From contig CP021423.1 in the NCBI GenBank assembly GCA_002162075.1, positions 2,790,001 to 2,854,000 of the forward strand: a stretch of 64,000 nt of DNA. Direction: 5' to 3'. Made by a program: the position numbers and the translations under genes. Positions 8,254 to 17,334 of this stretch are shown here, piece after piece. This DNA comes from Armatimonadetes bacterium Uphvl-Ar1 (GTDB lineage: Bacteria > Armatimonadota > Fimbriimonadia > Fimbriimonadales > Fimbriimonadaceae). Below the pieces are notes generated by a model. It saw only the letters and a list, made by a program, of their open reading frames with translations, was not told the DNA's origin and did no database searches. The first letter of the stretch is position 1. Each line of letters opens with the position of its first letter.

Positions 8254-9553
8254 ATTTGCGATTTTGGCGTCGCTCGGTGATCTTGGCTTCGTATCCGATC
8301 GTGCTCGGTTCGTAATAGGGAGTTGACAGTGGGTGATTTTCTGGAAGATAGGGCTGCTTCACCCAGCCGCCGGGATAGTTGTGGGGGTAGAGATAGTTTT
8401 CGCCGTGGCCGTGATCTTTGAGTCCAGAATGGGCAGCATTTCTCAGATGGAGCGGCACAGGTTGCACGAGCCCAGCTTCTACATCACGTTGCGCACTATT
8501 AATTGCCATGTAAGAACGATTGCTTTTTGGAGCCTCGGCGAGGAAGGTGACGCATTGGGAGAGAATGATTCGACTTTCGGGCATGCCGACGGTCTGGACA
8601 GCAGTTAAGGTGCTGGTGGCGAGGATCAGGGCCAAGGGTTCGGCATTACCGATATCTTCGGAGGCAAGGATCAGGAGTCGGCGGGCGATGAATCTGGGGT
8701 CTTCCCCGGCGGCGATCATACGAGCAAGATAATGGAGCGCGGCGTCGGAATCTGATCCACGAATGGACTTGATGAACGCGCTAATCGTGTCGTAGTGACT
8801 ATCGCCCTTTTTGTCGTACTTGAGTGCAGGGCGTTGGAGGACTTGCTCGAGAAGCGGCAGCTCAATTGGTTCTCCGGGTTCGACCATGAGAGAGGCGGTT
8901 TCAAGGGCGTTCAGCATGAGTCGTGCGTCGCCTGAACTTAGGCGGATGAGGAACGCTTCGGCTTCATCGGTGAGTGTTGGTGCTTTGGGGGCGAGGCCAC
9001 GGTCTCCATCGGTGAGAGCAAGGTGGATCAGGTGCTTGAGATCCGATTCACCGAGGGGCTGAAGGGGCAGGACTCTGGCCCGGGAGAGAACAGCGTCGTT
9101 GAGAGCGAAGTAAGGGTTTTCGGTGGTGGCTCCGACCATCCGAAACGTGCCGTCCTCAAGATAGCCCAGAAGAGAGTCTTGTTGGGATTTGTTAAAGTGG
9201 TGAATTTCGTCGATGAGAAGGAGGGTGGGTTGCTCGGTAAGGCTGTAGCGTGATTTGGCTTCAGTTGCGGATTTGCGGATGTCGGCTACGCCGGCGGTTA
9301 CGGCACTTAGGCTGACTAGATGGGCGTTGCTGTAATGGGCGATGATATTGGCCAGGGTTGTTTTGCCGCATCCAGGAGGTGCCCAGAGGATCACAGAGCC
9401 GAGTTTTCCGGAGCGAATAGCTTGTTCAGTTGGTGAACCGGGGCCAAGAATATGTTGTTGCCCGACGTAATTGTCCAGCGTGGTCGGGCGCATACGTGTG
9501 GCGAGAGGGAGATTGGGATTTAGCGAATCGGTTGGGGATTCAAATAGGCTCAT
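8252..9553 (-). CDS. rarA: Replication-associated recombination protein A (AAA+ ATPase)
   Basis: A 433-aa RarA/MgsA family ATPase acting at stalled replication forks. Walker A APPGCGKTT is at residues 58-66 and Walker B LLLIDEIHHF at 111-120; the family's N-terminal RPTTLDNYVGQQHILG and the C-terminal tetramerisation region (LPLHLRNAAHSGLKDHGHG) are present. It overlaps the nusB stop by 14 bases and is the last gene of the minus-strand acc-nusB run. Confidence 0.93.
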   Translation of the reverse strand: MSLFESPTDSLNPNLPLATRMRPTTLDNYVGQQHILGPGSPTEQAIRSGKLGSVILWAPPGCGKTTLANIIAHYSNAHLVSLSAVTAGVADIRKSATEAKSRYSLTEQPTLLLIDEIHHFNKSQQDSLLGYLEDGTFRMVGATTENPYFALNDAVLSRARVLPLQPLGESDLKHLIHLALTDGDRGLAPKAPTLTDEAEAFLIRLSSGDARLMLNALETASLMVEPGEPIELPLLEQVLQRPALKYDKKGDSHYDTISAFIKSIRGSDSDAALHYLARMIAAGEDPRFIARRLLILASEDIGNAEPLALILATSTLTAVQTVGMPESRIILSQCVTFLAEAPKSNRSYMAINSAQRDVEAGLVQPVPLHLRNAAHSGLKDHGHGENYLYPHNYPGGWVKQPYLPENHPLSTPYYEPSTIGYEAKITERRQNRK

Positions 9554-10133
9554 CGTCTCGTTTGATGACCCATGATCCAGCGGTTACGGACTCTTCAATG
9601 GGTTCTTCAGTTGGCTCTTCGTCGGGATCGGGAGCGAAGTCGAGTTCGATGACTTCGGATTCGGGGATGGAATCATCAACGATGGGGGCTTCCCAGTTTG
9701 ATTTGGGTGATTGAACGAGGAGGTTGGCGAGGACACCGTTGACGAACCGACCGCTTTCGGCGGAGCCAAACCGTTTGGCTAGATCAACTGCTTGGGAGAT
9801 AGTGACTTTTGGGGGCATATCGGGCAAATGAAGGAGTTCATAGGCAGCGATATGAAGAATGACGTGGTCGGAAACGGCAATCCGGGAGAGTGTCCATCCT
9901 TCGGCGAGGAGGGGTTCCAGTTGTTGGTCGAGTGTTTCGTGCTCGGCGATTACTCCGGTGACAAGGTTTGTGATGAATTGTCTTGAGTCAGCGGAGAGGG
10001 TATGACGACTTTCCGCGATCTGTTGGGCTTCGGATTGGGAGAGTCCACCGATTTTTGCCATGTATAGGCTTTGGTAGGCGACTTCCCGGGCAAGTCGGCG
10101 CGAATTGCTGGGCGTTATATCGGATTCAGGCAT
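9540..10133 (-). CDS. nusB: Transcription antitermination factor NusB with an acidic C-terminal tail
   Basis: The NusB fold is clear (SRRLAREVAYQSLYMAKIGG; ISQAVDLAKRFGSAESGRFV; NGVLANLL). It binds boxA RNA with NusE/S10. The start MPESDIT at 10133 has AGGAAG nine bases upstream; a farther in-frame ATG at 10160 would overlap accC by 35 bases and is less likely. About 50 residues after the fold are acidic, rich in E, P and D, and unusual for NusB. Confidence 0.9.
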   Translation of the reverse strand: MPESDITPSNSRRLAREVAYQSLYMAKIGGLSQSEAQQIAESRHTLSADSRQFITNLVTGVIAEHETLDQQLEPLLAEGWTLSRIAVSDHVILHIAAYELLHLPDMPPKVTISQAVDLAKRFGSAESGRFVNGVLANLLVQSPKSNWEAPIVDDSIPESEVIELDFAPDPDEEPTEEPIEESVTAGSWVIKRDDEPI

Positions 10134-11487
10134 GGGTGGCGGCTTCCTGGAGGAATTCACCGACGAAAGCGGTGCTGACTTCCCCGGAGACGTAACGTTG
10201 ATCCCGAACTAGGCGACGGAGGAATGAGATATTGGTCTGGATTCCTTCGACATTGAATTCGTCGAGGGCGACTTGCAGTCGGCGCACCGCGAGTTCGCGA
10301 GTTTCTGCAGTGACGATCAACTTGGCAATCATCGGGTCGTAATAGGGTGAAACGGTGAAACCAGCATAGACATGGGTATCGAGTCGAACTCCTCGGAATC
10401 CAGGTGGTTCCCATCGGGTGATCTTTCCGGTGCACGGGGCGAAATCTTTATCCGGATCTTGGGCGGTAATGCGAGCTTCGATGGAGTGGCCATGGAGTTT
10501 GACTCCGGATTGGTCGAAGGGGAGTTTTTCGCCATTGGCGATGCGGATTTGCCATTGAACGAGGTCAAGTCCGCTGATCTGTTCGGTGACTGGGTGCTCA
10601 ACTTGGATCCGGGTGTTCATTTCGAGGAAGAAGAATTCGCCTCGGGCATCAAGGAGGAATTCGACGGTTCCAGCGTTGCTGTAGCCGACTTGCTTGGCGA
10701 CGCGGACGGCAGCGGCACCCATTTGATCACGGAGTTCGTTGGTAAGGACAACACACGGGGCTTCTTCGACAATTTTTTGGTGGCGCGGATTTTGGACTGA
10801 GCATTCTCGTTCTCCGATGTGGACTACGTTGCCGTGCTCGTCACCGAGGATTTGGATTTCGACGTGGCGGGGGAGGAGAACACACTTTTCGACGAGCATG
10901 TCGCCATTTCCGAAACTGGCTTGAGCCTCGGCTTGGGCGGTTTTGAATGCATGGGTAAGTTCCTCTTTACTGTCGACGCGTCGGATTCCTCGGCCTCCAC
11001 CCCCAGCGACGGCTTTCAGGAGGACGGGATAGCCAATTTTCTCGGCCCACTCCATGGCTTCGACTTCGCTGGGAACTGGTCCAGTTGAACCGGGGACAAC
11101 GGGGCAGTTGGCAATGATGGCGGCTTCTTTGGCTTTTGCTTTGTCCCCCATTGCTTCGATAGCGCTGACAGAGGGGCCGATAAATTTGATGCCCATTGAA
11201 GCGAGAGCTTCAGCGAAGCTGGGTCGCTCGCTGAAGTAGCCAAAACCTGGATGGACGGCTTCAGCTCCCGTGATTTCACATGCGGAGAGGACATTGGCGA
11301 GATTGAGATAGCTTTCAGTATTCGTTCCGGCCCCGATGCATACGGATTCGGTTGCCATATGGACGTGTCGGCTATCGGCATCAGCTTGGCTATAGACGGC
11401 GATTGATTCGATCCCAAGTTCGTGGCAGGCACGAATGACTCGACAGGCGATTTCGCCGCGATTGGCGATGAGGATTCTTTTGAACAT
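10126..11487 (-). CDS. accC: Acetyl-CoA carboxylase, biotin carboxylase subunit
   Basis: A 453-aa ATP-grasp enzyme that carboxylates biotin on BCCP. The start is MFKRILIANRGEIACRVIRA at 11487, where ATG overlaps the upstream gene's TGA by one base. The glycine-rich KAVAGGGGRGIRRV loop and EMNTRIQVEHPVTEQISGLD catalytic block are intact. It is preceded by a pilin-like gene and by an accB-like gene that lacks the biotinyl lysine, so its true BCCP partner may be encoded elsewhere. Confidence 0.95.
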   Translation of the reverse strand: MFKRILIANRGEIACRVIRACHELGIESIAVYSQADADSRHVHMATESVCIGAGTNTESYLNLANVLSACEITGAEAVHPGFGYFSERPSFAEALASMGIKFIGPSVSAIEAMGDKAKAKEAAIIANCPVVPGSTGPVPSEVEAMEWAEKIGYPVLLKAVAGGGGRGIRRVDSKEELTHAFKTAQAEAQASFGNGDMLVEKCVLLPRHVEIQILGDEHGNVVHIGERECSVQNPRHQKIVEEAPCVVLTNELRDQMGAAAVRVAKQVGYSNAGTVEFLLDARGEFFFLEMNTRIQVEHPVTEQISGLDLVQWQIRIANGEKLPFDQSGVKLHGHSIEARITAQDPDKDFAPCTGKITRWEPPGFRGVRLDTHVYAGFTVSPYYDPMIAKLIVTAETRELAVRRLQVALDEFNVEGIQTNISFLRRLVRDQRYVSGEVSTAFVGEFLQEAATHA

Positions 11488-11864
11488 CAGTATTTCTCGT
11501 GTCCTTTGTGGGGGCACTTGACGGTGCCGGTCGTGGGGTCGTATTCGTAGGGTTCTTTACCGACGGGACAGGAATAGAATTGGGTACCCAGTCGTGTTTC
11601 TTCGATTGTTTGAGGGAAGGTGTTCTCGACGGGATCGGTTGCAATGCTGATTCCTTGCCGAACTTGATTGAGGTTGGAGATACAGACGTCGTCTTTGGCG
11701 GCGTAGAGCGATTTGCCGATGAGAGTCTTGCCTTTGCCGTCAGCGCGTTCTTTTGATTCTCCACCGAGGAATTTGCCGCCGGTCACAAAGAAGACGGAGG
11801 CGAGAATGACGATGAATACGGCGACGAGGAGGCCGATCAAGCTGTTACCTGAGGTTGTTTTCAT
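11487..11864 (-). CDS. Pilin-like single-pass protein inserted between accB-like and accC
   Basis: 125 aa. The N-terminus MKTTSGNSLIGLLVAVFIVI continues as one hydrophobic helix, then a soluble domain with CISNLNQVRQGISIA (a stretch like those in type II pseudopilins) and a C-terminal YDPTTGTVKCPHKGHEKY. GNSLIGLL resembles a prepilin peptidase site (G|xxLIE) but residue +5 is Gly, not Glu, so processing is uncertain. It overlaps accB-like by 4 bases and accC by 1, so it is co-translated with them. Function unknown. Confidence 0.8.
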   Translation of the reverse strand: MKTTSGNSLIGLLVAVFIVILASVFFVTGGKFLGGESKERADGKGKTLIGKSLYAAKDDVCISNLNQVRQGISIATDPVENTFPQTIEETRLGTQFYSCPVGKEPYEYDPTTGTVKCPHKGHEKY

Positions 11865-12262
11865 GAGATTTCGATTTCCATGAGGTTGAGTCCGAACTCG
11901 ACGGGGTCACCATCCTTGACATTGACAGAATGGACTTTGCCGGCGGCGGGGGTTGTGATTTCGTTTGAGATGCCAAGGGCGAGGACTTCACCGACCGTTT
12001 GTCCGGCTTTGAGTTCGGTTCCGACTTGTGCGACTTCGGGGAGCCATTTGACGTATCCGACTACGGGGGCAGGTATGGCTTGGTATTGGGGGCCAGATGC
12101 CATTTCGGAGTCATCGTCCCAGGCTTCGCCCCATGTGAGGGCTTCTTCGGAGAGGGTTGCCTGAAATGATGTCTCTCCACTCCGGAGTTTGATACTTCGG
12201 AATCCGCCATCGCGGGCGGTGGTGAGAGCCTTCCGGATTGTTTCGGCGTTCAGCGGATTCAT
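11861..12262 (-). CDS. Biotin carboxyl carrier (AccB)-like protein lacking the biotinyl lysine
   Basis: 133 aa with AccB layout: helical N-terminus (MNPLNAETIRKALTTA), linker, and a C-terminal biotinyl domain (PAPVVGYVKWLPEVAQVGTE to the end). In BCCPs the loop reads EAMKMMNEI with biotin on the Lys; here the aligned stretch is LALGISNEI, so Lys is Gly and EAM/M are lost. The codon at this position is GGC, read directly. It therefore cannot be biotinylated at the usual site. It may be a regulatory or structural paralogue, as plant BADC proteins are for plastid ACCase (inference). First gene of the accC-nusB-rarA string. Confidence 0.85.
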   Translation of the reverse strand: MNPLNAETIRKALTTARDGGFRSIKLRSGETSFQATLSEEALTWGEAWDDDSEMASGPQYQAIPAPVVGYVKWLPEVAQVGTELKAGQTVGEVLALGISNEITTPAAGKVHSVNVKDGDPVEFGLNLMEIEIS

Positions 12263-12627: not shown

Positions 12628-13257
12628 ATGAGTGAACAGACGCATCAATTTGGGCTGATGGAGATGTCGGCGATACGCGAGATGTCGAACATCGGGTTGG
12701 GTCATGCCACGACGGCCTTGGCGAATATGACGGGTAAGTCTTTTAACATGGAGATTCCTAATGTTGAGACGGTCGCTTTGGAGCAGGTTCCATTGATGAT
12801 GGGGAATCCGGAAGAAGTGGCGGTTGGGATTTGTATGCCAATCGATGGAGATATTACGGGTCACACGGCCTTTCTATTCCCTTGGGAGAGTGCTCAAGAT
12901 TTGTGGCGGATGTTGATTGGGACGGCTCCAGAAACACCAGGGGACATTGATGAACTTGCGGCATCGGTGATGTTGGAGATTGGGAATATCGTCTCTTCGA
13001 GTTTCTTGAACGCGATAAGCGATATGTCGAATCTGAAACTTCATGCGACTCCGCCGATGGTTTCGGTTGATTTGGTTTATACGATAGCGGCTTCGATTGT
13101 GGCGGAAGCTGAGATGGATGAGGCGATTGCCTTGGCACTTGAAACGCGCTTGTACGGGATGGATGATTGTGCGACTACCGGGTATTTCCTGTGCGTACCT
13201 ACTCTGAGCGGTTTAAATCAGCTGTTCCGAGCCTTGGGCATTGCGGAGGCCGCCTAA
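12628..13257 (+). CDS. cheC: CheY-P phosphatase CheC
   Basis: 209 aa with two CheC phosphatase helices: AIREMSNIGLGHATTALANM near residue 15 and ELAASVMLEIGNIVSSSFLN near 112, both carrying the E-x-x-N core. Dephosphorylates CheY-P; in other bacteria CheC also binds CheD. First gene of the chemotaxis string, 5 bases before cheD. Confidence 0.93.
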   Translation: MSEQTHQFGLMEMSAIREMSNIGLGHATTALANMTGKSFNMEIPNVETVALEQVPLMMGNPEEVAVGICMPIDGDITGHTAFLFPWESAQDLWRMLIGTAPETPGDIDELAASVMLEIGNIVSSSFLNAISDMSNLKLHATPPMVSVDLVYTIAASIVAEAEMDEAIALALETRLYGMDDCATTGYFLCVPTLSGLNQLFRALGIAEAA

Positions 13258-13262
13258 GAGAG

Positions 13263-13793
13263 ATGTCGACCGGGACTCAGCTTTTGGTGGGGATGGCGGA
13301 TATCAAGGTCGCAAAAGGTCCAGCGACTTTCACGTGTTTGGGTCTGGGTTCCTGTATTGGATTGGTTGCCTTTGATGAGCAAGCGGACGTTTGGGGGATG
13401 GTGCACATTATGTTGCCCGAGGCGTTCAAAGACAAGCCGGTAGATAAGGTCGGCAAGTTTGCAAATACAGGAATTCCGGCGATGATTGCCGAAATGGAAA
13501 AGCTTGGGGCGAATCCGTCGCGGATGGTGATGGCATTGGCGGGCGGAGCCCAAGTTTTTAAGTTTGGATCGGCGGCGTCTTCACGCTTGGATGTAGGGGC
13601 GCGAAATGCCGAGGCGACTTTGGAGATTTTGCGGGGCATGAGAGCGAAAATTTCCGCCCAAGATACGGGGGGATCCAGTGGTCGCACGATGATTGTGAAG
13701 TCGGACACGGGGGTTGTTACAGTTCGAACCGTTCACGGGGGTGAGACGGAGTTGTGTTGTTTGCGACGGGGTCGGAGGAGTGTCGCAGCATGA
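13263..13793 (+). CDS. cheD: Chemoreceptor glutamine deamidase CheD
   Basis: 176 aa. The start ATG at 13263 lies just after cheC. The catalytic Cys31 (CLGLGSCIGL) and His48 (GMVHIMLPE) are present, and the GNAGGAQVF-like MALAGGAQVFKFG motif follows. Deamidates receptor glutamines and, with CheC, feeds back on CheY-P. The stop overlaps the next ATG (ATGA). Confidence 0.93.
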   Translation: MSTGTQLLVGMADIKVAKGPATFTCLGLGSCIGLVAFDEQADVWGMVHIMLPEAFKDKPVDKVGKFANTGIPAMIAEMEKLGANPSRMVMALAGGAQVFKFGSAASSRLDVGARNAEATLEILRGMRAKISAQDTGGSSGRTMIVKSDTGVVTVRTVHGGETELCCLRRGRRSVAA

Positions 13794-14653
13794 GCCATAC
13801 GGTAACGATTGAGCAGATTGTCAGCAAGACGAGTGACTTGCCGACAATTCCTGCAGCCGCATTGAAAGTCATGCGTGAAACGCAGAGTTCGAGTGCGAGT
13901 GCCGCCAGCGTTGCCCGAATCATCGTGACCGATCAGGCCTTGAGTGCTCGGGTTTTGCGGTTGGCAAACAGTGCGTTTTATGGATTGAGTCGAAAGATCA
14001 GCGATTTGCCAGAGGCAGTGGTTGTTCTTGGGATGAAATCAGTCAAGAATTTGGCCCTAGTGGCGGGGACTTATCCATGGATGAAGCGGCCATTGACCGG
14101 ATATTGTTTGGGACCGGAAGAAATGTGGCGGCATGCATTTGGGTGTGCGGCGGCGGCTCAGATTGTGGCGCGGATGAGCCGGAAATGTAGCGAGGATCTC
14201 GTTTTTACGGCCGGGTTGCTCCATGACATCGGCAAAGTTGCTTTGAGTGTTTGGCTTGAGAACAAGATGGGGGCGATTTTGCTCTATGCGGGTCGGGAAG
14301 AGATTTCATTTGATGAAGCTGAACGTCGGGTCTTGGGCTACGACCACTGTCAGGTGGGATTCCACTTAGCTACAAGTTGGAATTTGCCGGAGGAGATTTG
14401 CTCGGCGTGTTTGTATCACCACACCCCAGCCCAGGCGGCGGAGCACCAATCGGTGGTGGACTGCGTGCATGTTGGTGACTACATTTGTTCGGCGATGGGA
14501 TTTGGTTTGGGGGGCGATGGGATGCTCTATCCGTTTGACGAAGGGAGTTTGACTCGGCTCGGGCTCCGTCCAGAGCAAATTGACGCGATTACGGATGAGT
14601 TTGTGGAGAAGTTTGAGGAGTACGAGGCCTTGTTTTTGGAGATTGCCGCATGA
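13790..14653 (+). CDS. HDOD domain protein in the chemotaxis operon
   Basis: 287 aa. HDOD signature throughout: LPTIPAAALKVMRETQ, VTDQALSARVLRLANSAFYG, GLLHDIGKVALSVW and a YDHCQVGFHLATSWNLPEEI block. HDOD proteins are HD-fold signalling modules usually without proven hydrolase activity. It overlaps cheD and cheB by 4 bases each, so it is firmly part of the operon and probably acts in the same signalling pathway. Confidence 0.9.
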   Translation: MSHTVTIEQIVSKTSDLPTIPAAALKVMRETQSSSASAASVARIIVTDQALSARVLRLANSAFYGLSRKISDLPEAVVVLGMKSVKNLALVAGTYPWMKRPLTGYCLGPEEMWRHAFGCAAAAQIVARMSRKCSEDLVFTAGLLHDIGKVALSVWLENKMGAILLYAGREEISFDEAERRVLGYDHCQVGFHLATSWNLPEEICSACLYHHTPAQAAEHQSVVDCVHVGDYICSAMGFGLGGDGMLYPFDEGSLTRLGLRPEQIDAITDEFVEKFEEYEALFLEIAA

Positions 14654-15681
14654 AAAAGCAACGAATCTTGATTGTTGATGACTCGCCATTTGTTCGGCGG
14701 ATGATTTCGGACTGGATCAAAGATCAGCCGGACATGGAAGTCGTGGGTGTCGGCAAGAACGGTGAAGAGGGGGCACGTTTGGCACAGGAATTACGGCCCG
14801 ATTTGGTGACACTTGACGTCGAAATGCCCGTGATGACGGGGCTTGAAGCTTTGCCGGAAATCATTGGCTCTGGTGCCAAGGTCTTAATGGTTTCATCAGT
14901 CACCCAGGCGGGAGCAACTGCGACGCTCGAGGCGTTGGATCACGGTGCGTTTGACTTTGTAACCAAGCCGAACAATGCAACGAGTTTGCGTTTTGTTGAG
15001 TGCCGAGAAGAGACGCTGGAGAAGATTCGGGCGAGTCGTTACATTCGCTCTTCCGTCCGGCCCACGACTGTGATCTCGGCTCCACGGCCAAAAACGAAGA
15101 CCGATCGAGTGGTTTTGATTGCGAGTTCAACTGGTGGGCCTTCGACACTTCGCACGCTTTGGGAGGGATTACCGAAAGGATTCCCGGCCCCGATTGTGAT
15201 AGTTCAGCACATGCCAGTTGGGTTTACGGCCAGCTTGGCGAAGCGACTGGATGCAGCGGGAACGGTGCCGTGTCGTGAAGCGGTGAATGGTGACCCGCTT
15301 GTGCCGGGTCAGGCTTATGTTGCGCCAGGGGGTTGTCATTTGGTTTTGGATTCCAAATTGCATTTGCAAACCAATGACGATGAAAAGATCCATGGAGTCA
15401 AACCAGCGGCGGATTTCTTGTTTGAATCGGGGGCGAAGTTTCTCGGTTCGCGGGCTTTGGGAGTTGTTCTGACGGGAATGGGTCGGGATGGGGCAGCTGG
15501 AGCTTTGGCGATCAAGAAGGCTGGGGGATCAGTGATTGGTGAAGCGGAGTGCAGTTGCGTGATTTATGGAATGCCAAAAGCGGCAAAGGAGATTGGAGCA
15601 GTGGACGCGGAATTTAAGTTAGAAGAGATGGCTTCGGCGATTGTGGCGAATCTGAGTGGGAGGGTGGCCCGTGCTTCCTAA
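14650..15681 (+). CDS. cheB: Chemotaxis response regulator / protein-glutamate methylesterase CheB
   Basis: 343 aa. Receiver domain with phospho-acceptor Asp56 (LVTLDVEMPV) and C-terminal methylesterase with the triad Ser160 (ASSTGGPSTL), His187 (QHMPVGFTA) and Asp280 (TGMGRDGAAG). Removes methyl groups from chemoreceptors. Normal length. Confidence 0.96.
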   Translation: MKKQRILIVDDSPFVRRMISDWIKDQPDMEVVGVGKNGEEGARLAQELRPDLVTLDVEMPVMTGLEALPEIIGSGAKVLMVSSVTQAGATATLEALDHGAFDFVTKPNNATSLRFVECREETLEKIRASRYIRSSVRPTTVISAPRPKTKTDRVVLIASSTGGPSTLRTLWEGLPKGFPAPIVIVQHMPVGFTASLAKRLDAAGTVPCREAVNGDPLVPGQAYVAPGGCHLVLDSKLHLQTNDDEKIHGVKPAADFLFESGAKFLGSRALGVVLTGMGRDGAAGALAIKKAGGSVIGEAECSCVIYGMPKAAKEIGAVDAEFKLEEMASAIVANLSGRVARAS

Positions 15682-16480
15682 GCCAGCAGAGTGGCAAGAG
15701 TTTTACGCACAATTCAAGCGTAAGACAGGGCTTGATCTTGACCTTTATAAAGCGAATCAGTTGCAACGCCGGATTATTTCGATGGCGGGGCAGCATCAGT
15801 GCAAGTCGCTCGGCGAGTTTGCGCAGTGGGTGAATGCTACTCCGATGAATACGGAGTGGTTTTTGGATCGCTTGGCAATCAATGTCAGTGAGTTGTTCCG
15901 AAATCCAGAGAAGTGGACAGAGATGGAGAAGGACATTTTGCCTTTGCTTTTGAAGGGCACACCTCGATTGAAGATTTGGAGTGCGGGCTGCAGTTATGGT
16001 GCAGAAGCACATTCGTTGGCGATGATTCTGGACAAGAAATTTCCGGGCAGCCACCGAATTTTGGGGACTGATATTGATACTGCGGCTTTGAATCAGGCGA
16101 AGTCGGGATTGTTTTCAAAGAATGATTTGCGGTGTGTACCGAAGGAGTATCGCGAATATTTGGTGGAGTCAGGGGCTGAATTTCAGGCAGATGATCGGTT
16201 GAAGAAATATCTGTCTTTTCAGAAGGGGAATCTGTTGGCGGACCGGTTTGAAACCGGATTCGATCTCATCATGTGCCGTAATGTCGTGATCTATTTCACG
16301 GAAGAGGCTAAAGATGAGCTTTATGAAAAGTTTTTCCGATCATTGAAACCGGGAGGGATTCTCTTTGTTGGGAGTACCGAGCGGATTACTCGATCGGGAG
16401 AGATTGGTTTTAGTGCGGCGAAGCCGTTCTATTACCAGAAGCCCATAGCGGGGGAAAAAGCATGGCGAAACGCATCCTAA
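15671..16480 (+). CDS. cheR: Chemotaxis protein methyltransferase CheR
   Basis: About 269 aa from the GTG at 15671, which follows AGGG; another GTG at 15656 is possible. CheR N-domain (FKRKTGLDLDLYKANQLQRR) and SAM-binding domain (IWSAGCSYGAEAHSLAMIL; DLIMCRNVVIYFTEEAKDEL; FVGSTERI). Methylates receptor glutamates, opposing CheB. Overlaps both neighbours. Confidence 0.95.
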   Translation: MLPKPAEWQEFYAQFKRKTGLDLDLYKANQLQRRIISMAGQHQCKSLGEFAQWVNATPMNTEWFLDRLAINVSELFRNPEKWTEMEKDILPLLLKGTPRLKIWSAGCSYGAEAHSLAMILDKKFPGSHRILGTDIDTAALNQAKSGLFSKNDLRCVPKEYREYLVESGAEFQADDRLKKYLSFQKGNLLADRFETGFDLIMCRNVVIYFTEEAKDELYEKFFRSLKPGGILFVGSTERITRSGEIGFSAAKPFYYQKPIAGEKAWRNAS

Positions 16481-16827
16481 TTACAGATGACGCGCTTTTT
16501 ATGCGCGTGACGTTGAAGAACATTCTGACTTCAAACGGCTACGAGGTCGTTGGCGAGGCAGAAAACGGTGCCCAGGCGGTGAAGCTCTATGATGAGTTGA
16601 AACCGGATTTGGTGACGATGGACATCACGATGCCGGAGATGGACGGATTGGAGGCTTTGAAGCAGATCAAGGCGGCCGATGCGAACGCGAAGGTTGTGAT
16701 GTGTACGGCAATGGGTCAGAAAAACATGGTCGTCGAGGCGATCCAAAGTGGGGCCAAGGACTTCATTGTTAAACCGTTCCAACCAGATCGAGTCTTGGAG
16801 GCAGTCGGCAAACTTTTGGCGGCTTAA
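16462..16827 (+). CDS. cheY: CheY-type single-domain response regulator
   Basis: 121-aa stand-alone receiver: acidic pocket DD at 9-10, phospho-acceptor Asp54 (LVTMDITMPEMDG), Thr82 and Lys104 (FIVKPF). Output to the motor or a pilus. Overlaps cheR by 19 bases. Confidence 0.93.
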   Translation: MAKRILITDDALFMRVTLKNILTSNGYEVVGEAENGAQAVKLYDELKPDLVTMDITMPEMDGLEALKQIKAADANAKVVMCTAMGQKNMVVEAIQSGAKDFIVKPFQPDRVLEAVGKLLAA

Positions 16828-16851
16828 GCTGGGTTTGGTGATGGTAAGAAA

Positions 16852-17334
16852 ATGAAGGTTGAGTACGTGACTCCGTTTGTCAGCGCATCGAGCTCGGTCA
16901 TTCACACATTGATCGGTCTGAATGCGGAACGGGGCAAGCTTTCGGCTCGACCGCAACTGTTCACTTCGCAGCAGGTCAACATCGTTTGTGGGATTACGGG
17001 CGAGATTGAAGGTCAGGTCATTTATGGTATGTCGATGGTGACAGCCAAGAAAATGGCGAGCAAGATGCTTGGAGGTCAGCCAGTTCCGGAGTTTGATCAG
17101 TTGGCGGCTTCGGCAATCGCTGAGCTTGGCAACATGATTAGTGGCAGTTCATCGAATCAGCTGTTTCAGTCGGGATTCAAGACAGACATTACGCCTCCGA
17201 CGATTGTGAAGGGGCCGAACATTTCGATGTCGAATTTTGATATTCCGACGTTGGTCATTCCTTTGAATGTGCCGGAAGTTGGCGAGCTTGAGATTGCCGT
17301 GAGTCTGCGGCAGCGGAAGAAGCAAGCGGCGTAG
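16852..17334 (+). CDS. cheX: CheY-P phosphatase CheX
   Basis: 160 aa with one CheX/CheC-type phosphatase helix, QLAASAIAELGNMISGSSSN (E and N at the catalytic positions). Ends the operon. CheC and CheX together imply two CheY-P phosphatases; no cheA, cheW or receptor gene is in the window. Confidence 0.9.
   Translation: MKVEYVTPFVSASSSVIHTLIGLNAERGKLSARPQLFTSQQVNIVCGITGEIEGQVIYGMSMVTAKKMASKMLGGQPVPEFDQLAASAIAELGNMISGSSSNQLFQSGFKTDITPPTIVKGPNISMSNFDIPTLVIPLNVPEVGELEIAVSLRQRKKQAA

Follow-up and report, generated by a model that had tools for sequence, protein, structure and literature searches.

The window, that is, the whole stretch of 64,000 nucleotides that was analysed, carries on its minus strand four genes, accB1, a pseudopilin-like gene, accC and nusB, which overlap successively by a few bases and of which accB1 is the first:

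11861–12262, minus strand: accB1, encoding a BCCP-type protein of 133 residues without the biotin-attachment lysine (ORF, Pfam, NCBIfam, profile, AlphaFold2)
12154–12262, minus strand: N-terminal region of AccB1, with helix 6–19 and hairpin 23–36 (AlphaFold2 and profile alignment to E. coli BCCP)
11972–11974, minus strand: codon GGC, Gly97, where the biotinylated lysine belongs (gapless alignment)
11866–12088, minus strand: biotinyl-like barrel of AccB1, approximately residues 59–132, pLDDT about 93 (AlphaFold2, Foldseek)
11487–11864, minus strand: gene for a pseudopilin-like single-span protein between accB1 and accC, overlapping accB1 (ATGA) and accC (TGATG)
10126–11487, minus strand: accC, the only biotin carboxylase of the acetyl-CoA carboxylase (ACC) type in the genome (Pfam, NCBIfam)
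9540–10133, minus strand: nusB, overlapping accC (ATG inside the end of accC); same order across the phylum

The initial annotation had placed accB1 in the accC operon. Operon membership stood, but the two genes are not contiguous, since the pseudopilin-like gene intervenes. This gene is found between accB1 and accC in the loci of the home order where accC is adjacent, and its product is kept through most of the phylum. The protein consists of a pilin-type N-terminal span, a long helix and then the motif CPxGxxxYxYDPxTGxVxCxHPGHE; some relatives (L184, L212, L028, L041 and L047) have a lipobox at the N-terminus instead. No match to it was found in Pfam or NCBIfam. Given its pilin or lipobox N-terminus, it is unlikely to be a cytosolic partner of ACC. 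Furthermore, since this intervening gene appears to encode an extracytoplasmic protein, operon membership is by itself no proof of a complex.

A DNA pattern from a neighbouring gene led to Fimbriimonadaceae, Fimbriimonas, Uphvl-Ar2, Chthonomonadaceae and other Armatimonadetes/Armatimonadota, and from these named relatives we infer Fimbriimonadales (Armatimonadota) to be the home clade. An apparent chemotaxis cluster runs divergently to the accB1 operon at 12628–17334 on the plus strand and was recognised by ORF reading only (CheC-like, CheD-like, HDOD, CheB-like, CheR-like, CheY-like and CheX-like frames). Its CheC-like member recurs next to the operon in many home-family loci.

The accB1 reading frame starts with ATG and encodes an N-terminal helix and hairpin, a linker and a biotinyl barrel. 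Residues 77–130 scored 33.8 bits with Pfam Biotin_lipoyl (PF00364; cut-off 22.1), and AlphaFold2 and Foldseek agreed with this assignment of AccB1 to the biotinyl/lipoyl domain superfamily. The top NCBIfam model was BCCP (TIGR00531), at 40.1 bits and thus well below the equivalog cut-off of 115.2. A profile of AccB1 orthologues aligned with full-length E. coli BCCP (4hr7_B; E = 4e-22) from profile position 3 to 133 and chain position 20 to 176, which indicates that the N-terminal region is homologous too. The structure predicted by AlphaFold2 had a linker of low confidence and a confident barrel, and Foldseek matches comprised BCCP biotinyl domains, including E. coli 1BDO/4HR7 and Arabidopsis BCCP1 9A87.

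The biotin loop of AccB1 reads VGEVLALGISNEI (EVLALGISNEI). Its comparison with the AccB of the same genome (GLIEAMKVFNEI; segment of the canonical AccB used as alignment reference, VGLIEAMKVFNEI) required no gaps and placed Gly97 at the lysine position. This confirmed the claim, made initially from the DNA, of an AccB-like protein with a glycine codon in place of that of the biotin lysine. In the AlphaFold2 model, Gly97 lies in the turn between strands 89–95 and 98–103, the turn that holds the biotinyl-lysine in BCCPs. A shift of the lysine to an adjacent residue was ruled out by the gapless alignment and by the lack of a conserved lysine in the loop. AccB1 therefore lacks the biotin-accepting lysine in E-x-M-K-x that characterizes a canonical BCCP, and it also lacks the full thumb, which is reduced to 11 residues (GYVKWLPEVAQ) from 16 in AccB2, the canonical paralogue described below. 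It shares with bacterial AccB/BCCP (TIGR00531; E. coli 4HR7) homology over the whole length, the fold and the operon slot, but differs in its lysine-free loop, its short thumb and its score (40 bits vs the equivalog cut-off of 115). AccB1 is a paralogue of AccB but, since the defining lysine is absent, it is not a BCCP in function.

Eight places in the genome were found with PF00364. One of them, away from accB1, encodes a canonical AccB (AccB2) with EAMKVFNEI and a full thumb, and another a separate carrier of the PCC/MCC type (EAMKMQQP); the remaining ones correspond to lipoyl domains of E2 enzymes and to one HlyD-like protein. The second biotin carboxylase of the genome is of another type, and accA and accD are located elsewhere. 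The possibility that AccB1 is the sole BCCP of the genome was rejected, as a canonical, EAMK-bearing AccB is present. The second BCCP presupposed by the initial annotation thus exists, and a match to the AccB2 profile was obtained in 60 of the 61 relatives searched.

Among the 60 closest genomes, 35 of the 36 other home-family members had a match to AccB1. The lysine position was occupied by glycine in all 36 home-family proteins and in 17 of 18 proteins from the order's remaining families, where a single protein had threonine (53/54 glycine in total); the loop motif in the order is xLG[LI]xN[DE]. None of these close relatives has lysine at this position; the residue reappears in classes of the phylum that are further removed, and only there. 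For accB1, one close pair gave a dN/dS of 0.066 and another a dN/dS of 0.037, and the gene is under purifying selection. A sequencing error, a frameshift or a decaying pseudogene is ruled out, with hardly any probability left to it, by the agreement of the relatives (53/54), the dN/dS of 0.04–0.07 and the intact barrel confidently predicted by AlphaFold2, and the initial statement that the gene is not decaying holds.

Family f2 of the order includes a protein (L093) with EAMG, in which the lysine is the sole change. The lysine-less gene of this family is mostly away from accC. In seven of its loci (L083, L084, L086, L089, L090, L094 and L097) the lysine-less AccB mostly reads EVLGIPNEV and accC is absent from the fetched flanks; in L083 the gene stands between a ClpB/ClpC-like gene and one for a UPF0182 membrane protein. 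In two home-family genomes of 1.5 Mb (G036 and G145), AccB1 had no match and the AccB2 profile matched only weakly; these genomes possibly have no ACC of the AccB1/AccB2 type. The weak match in G145 (L244) reads EAMKTQQT and resembles the carrier of another carboxylase.

A profile search of 237 genomes gave matches in 233, mostly two apiece. In 38 genomes outside the order, AccB1 occupied the same slot, usually efp–(gene)–accB1–pseudopilin-like gene–accC–nusB–folD; the order efp–accB1–pseudopilin–accC–nusB–folD represents the ancestral accB slot, taken by AccB1. The lysine column of AccB1 in these 38 genomes comprised 23 K, 6 G, 3 R, 2 D, 2 T, 1 S and 1 H, and a distinct AccB2 with AMK was present in all of the 29 genomes sampled outside the order. 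A tree was built from 80 AccB1 and 36 AccB2 sequences, with exclusion of one hit (L095, EAMKT) that looks like an MCC/PCC-type domain. One branch (SH-aLRT 96) separated the two paralogues, and for this reason the duplication of accB looks older than the sampled phylum.

On the AccC tree (65 loci), the lysine state of AccB1 changed at least 8 times, 5 of the changes being forced by well-supported branches. Since a variety of residues took the place of the lysine (G, R, D, N, H, S, T), and since the motif is unlikely to have been regained exactly, we read these changes as repeated losses, at least 5–8 in number. The lysine and the 16-residue thumb were both found in 36 of the 36 AccB2 sampled. 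The thumb was shortened, mostly to 11 residues, in most AccB1, including 19 of the 26 that still have the lysine. The title of Cronan 2001, as cited in PMC3048393, presents the thumb as essential in E. coli. Taken together, the short thumb of lysine-bearing AccB1 and the reported need for the thumb in E. coli suggest that the carrier role was relaxed first, and that AccB1 ceased to be a working carrier before it lost the lysine. Several loci (L121, L128, L130, L131 and similar ones) have an AccB1 with lysine (ESMKL) and a short thumb beside a canonical AccB2.

The search was extended to other phyla, where loci were the best matches to the lysine-less profile, so that the following fractions indicate occurrence, not frequency. 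Among the 30 best matches in a Chloroflexota sample, the lysine column contained 14 G, 8 K, 6 N, 1 R and 1 Q, and the second AccB copies from the sampled genomes had K in 17/17. The 30 best matches of a third phylum-level group, which adjoin accC, comprised 24 G, 2 R, 2 S, 1 K and 1 N, with K in the three second copies that were read. In Chloroflexota, ORF reading placed the lysine-less gene in the order accD–accA–accB–(fabD)–accC or accD–accA–accB–accC–fabZ in two loci (L262, L285), and in many others it was not seen adjoining accC. By contrast, none of the 30 best matches in a fourth group, around a Limnochordaceae genome, was lysine-less: all had K and full thumbs. The best match was likewise a canonical AccB in five further genomes of other lineages. 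These last results show that loss of the lysine is not general noise in AccB; it accompanies a second, lysine-bearing AccB. A cross-phylum tree separated accC-linked from other copies by one branch, but support was poor for most of its deep forks and we do not, for this reason, claim a single origin across phyla. In most loci of the phylum of G242 (L337–L366), the canonical AccB domain is part of open frames of about 610–700 residues, which suggests a fusion of AccB with another carboxylase domain. The occurrence of lysine-less AccB is thus wider than initially noted: it is phylum-wide and recurrent, and extends to two further lineages.

ACC carries out the committed step in the synthesis of fatty acids, and plants depend on BADC for the assembly of this enzyme. 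In the crystal structure of the E. coli BC–BCCP complex, four BCCPs hold two BC dimers together, with their cores acting as a clamp; the BC tetramer of Chloroflexus is built by the N-terminal hairpin of its BCCP domain (PMC11077971). As AccB1 kept the parts that make contacts and lost the part that performs the chemistry, we propose, with a probability of roughly 0.6, that it is a dedicated non-carrier subunit of ACC, which would pair with AccC, AccB2 or both and serve in the assembly or tuning of the complex. That the gene was kept beside that of its partner in a phylum and in at least two other lineages, although the lysine was lost, also points to AccB1 being probably an extra non-carrier subunit. 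The ancient duplication would have produced AccB2, the biotin carrier that always kept lysine and thumb, and AccB1, which would have remained beside accC, undergone shortening of its thumb and then repeatedly lost the lysine. With its N-terminal helix/hairpin and barrel, the parts used by BCCPs to pair mutually and with biotin carboxylase, AccB1 may take the position of a second AccB in binding to AccC, to AccB2 or to both. This binding would assemble, stabilise or tune the AccC–AccB2 complex, as BADC does in plant plastids. Both the existence of such a complex and its influence on ACC activity are inferred.

The sequence distances of AccB1 co-varied significantly with those of AccC, though this measure is confounded by the species tree; the partial r was 0.53 for AccB1 and 0.70 for AccB2, and 0.27 vs 0.58, equally subject to this confounding, when each was also controlled for the other. 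As co-variation with AccC was weaker for AccB1 than for AccB2, an exclusive AccB1–AccC partnership is not indicated. A subunit role also sits less easily with family f2, whose lysine-less gene mostly stands apart from accC, and with the two 1.5-Mb home-family genomes that gave no AccB1 match.

Plant BADC1–3 of the plastid heteromeric ACCase and AccB1 are both BCCP-like proteins that have no biotinylation motif or lysine and coexist with a true BCCP. BADC has been found experimentally to interact with BC and BCCP, and the earlier view of BADC as a negative regulator of ACC, on which the initial annotation relied, has since shifted towards a promotion of BC–BCCP assembly (PMC11926652, PMC12873504). 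Unlike BADC, AccB1 is bacterial, operon-linked to accC, shortened in its thumb and known from sequence alone. As far as can be judged on this basis, it appears BADC-like in kind, a likeness by description that implies no claim of descent. The bacterial BADC analogue proposed initially is therefore apt as an analogy for a conserved lysine-less AccB, whereas the regulation or scaffolding of AccC that went with it would follow from homology, synteny and the coexistence of AccB2. Some bacterial acyl-CoA carboxylases have non-catalytic 'glue' subunits that help the holoenzyme to assemble (PMC11926652). Compared by description, these share with AccB1 a non-catalytic role, proposed in the case of AccB1, but they are not described as BCCP-derived.

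We considered the possibility that AccB1 acts mainly outside the enzyme, as a biotin-free AccB that represses or autoregulates expression of the accC operon. Such transcriptional autoregulation is the main rival to a subunit role, though an unlikely one. To go by the citation of James and Cronan (2004) in PMC11602165, E. coli AccB, which has no DNA-binding motif, has been proposed to control the transcription of its own operon, accBC. The leading position of accB1 in the accB1–pilin–accC–nusB set would also fit. Yet, many loci of Chloroflexota, as well as family f2, were not seen to have the lysine-less gene beside accC. Furthermore, autoregulation by E. coli AccB is ascribed to its N-terminal part, whereas in AccB1 the conservation of the barrel is no weaker than that of the remainder.

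It is rather improbable that AccB1 lowers ACC activity as an inhibitor or decoy, by competing with AccB2 for AccC or by occupying BirA as a non-substrate. AccB1 has retained the barrel that ligases recognise (AlphaFold2, Foldseek), and BADC was itself initially described as a negative regulator (PMC12873504); against this, the overlapping accB1, pseudopilin and accC genes suit a subunit better than a conditional inhibitor, and the N-terminal region, which is conserved, would be superfluous in a pure decoy. We see even less reason to place AccB1 outside the ACC pathway, in the service of an unrelated protein such as the pseudopilin-like neighbour, with the accC linkage as a leftover of an old operon. 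This neighbour persists across the phylum and has no Pfam match, as such a role would allow, but it looks extracytoplasmic, with a pilin or lipoprotein N-terminus, whereas AccB1 has no signal sequence. Moreover, in Chloroflexota, where no pilin-like match turned up, the lysine-less AccB can sit with accD, accA, accC and fabZ.

If AccB1 is indeed a non-carrier subunit of ACC, a bacterial, operon-encoded and repeatedly evolved counterpart of BADC would offer a simple system in which to test a biotin-free carrier in ACC, and the accC-adjacent gene would often be wrongly annotated as biotin carrier in these phyla. In a limited search of the open-access literature, we found no description of a lysine-less AccB in bacteria; in a paper of 2025 (PMC11926652), BADC is still presented as being 'unique to the plant' enzyme. 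The repeated loss of the lysine from AccB1, set against its full retention in AccB2, provides a natural experiment on the division of labour after duplication. We suggest, more tentatively, that Armatimonadota, Chloroflexota and the third group might have a five-subunit acetyl-CoA carboxylase, with a biotin-free AccB paralogue as a standing structural subunit. Were this so, the four-subunit enzyme of E. coli would not stand for bacteria in general, and the BADC arrangement of plants would have an independent or even ancestral counterpart in bacteria.
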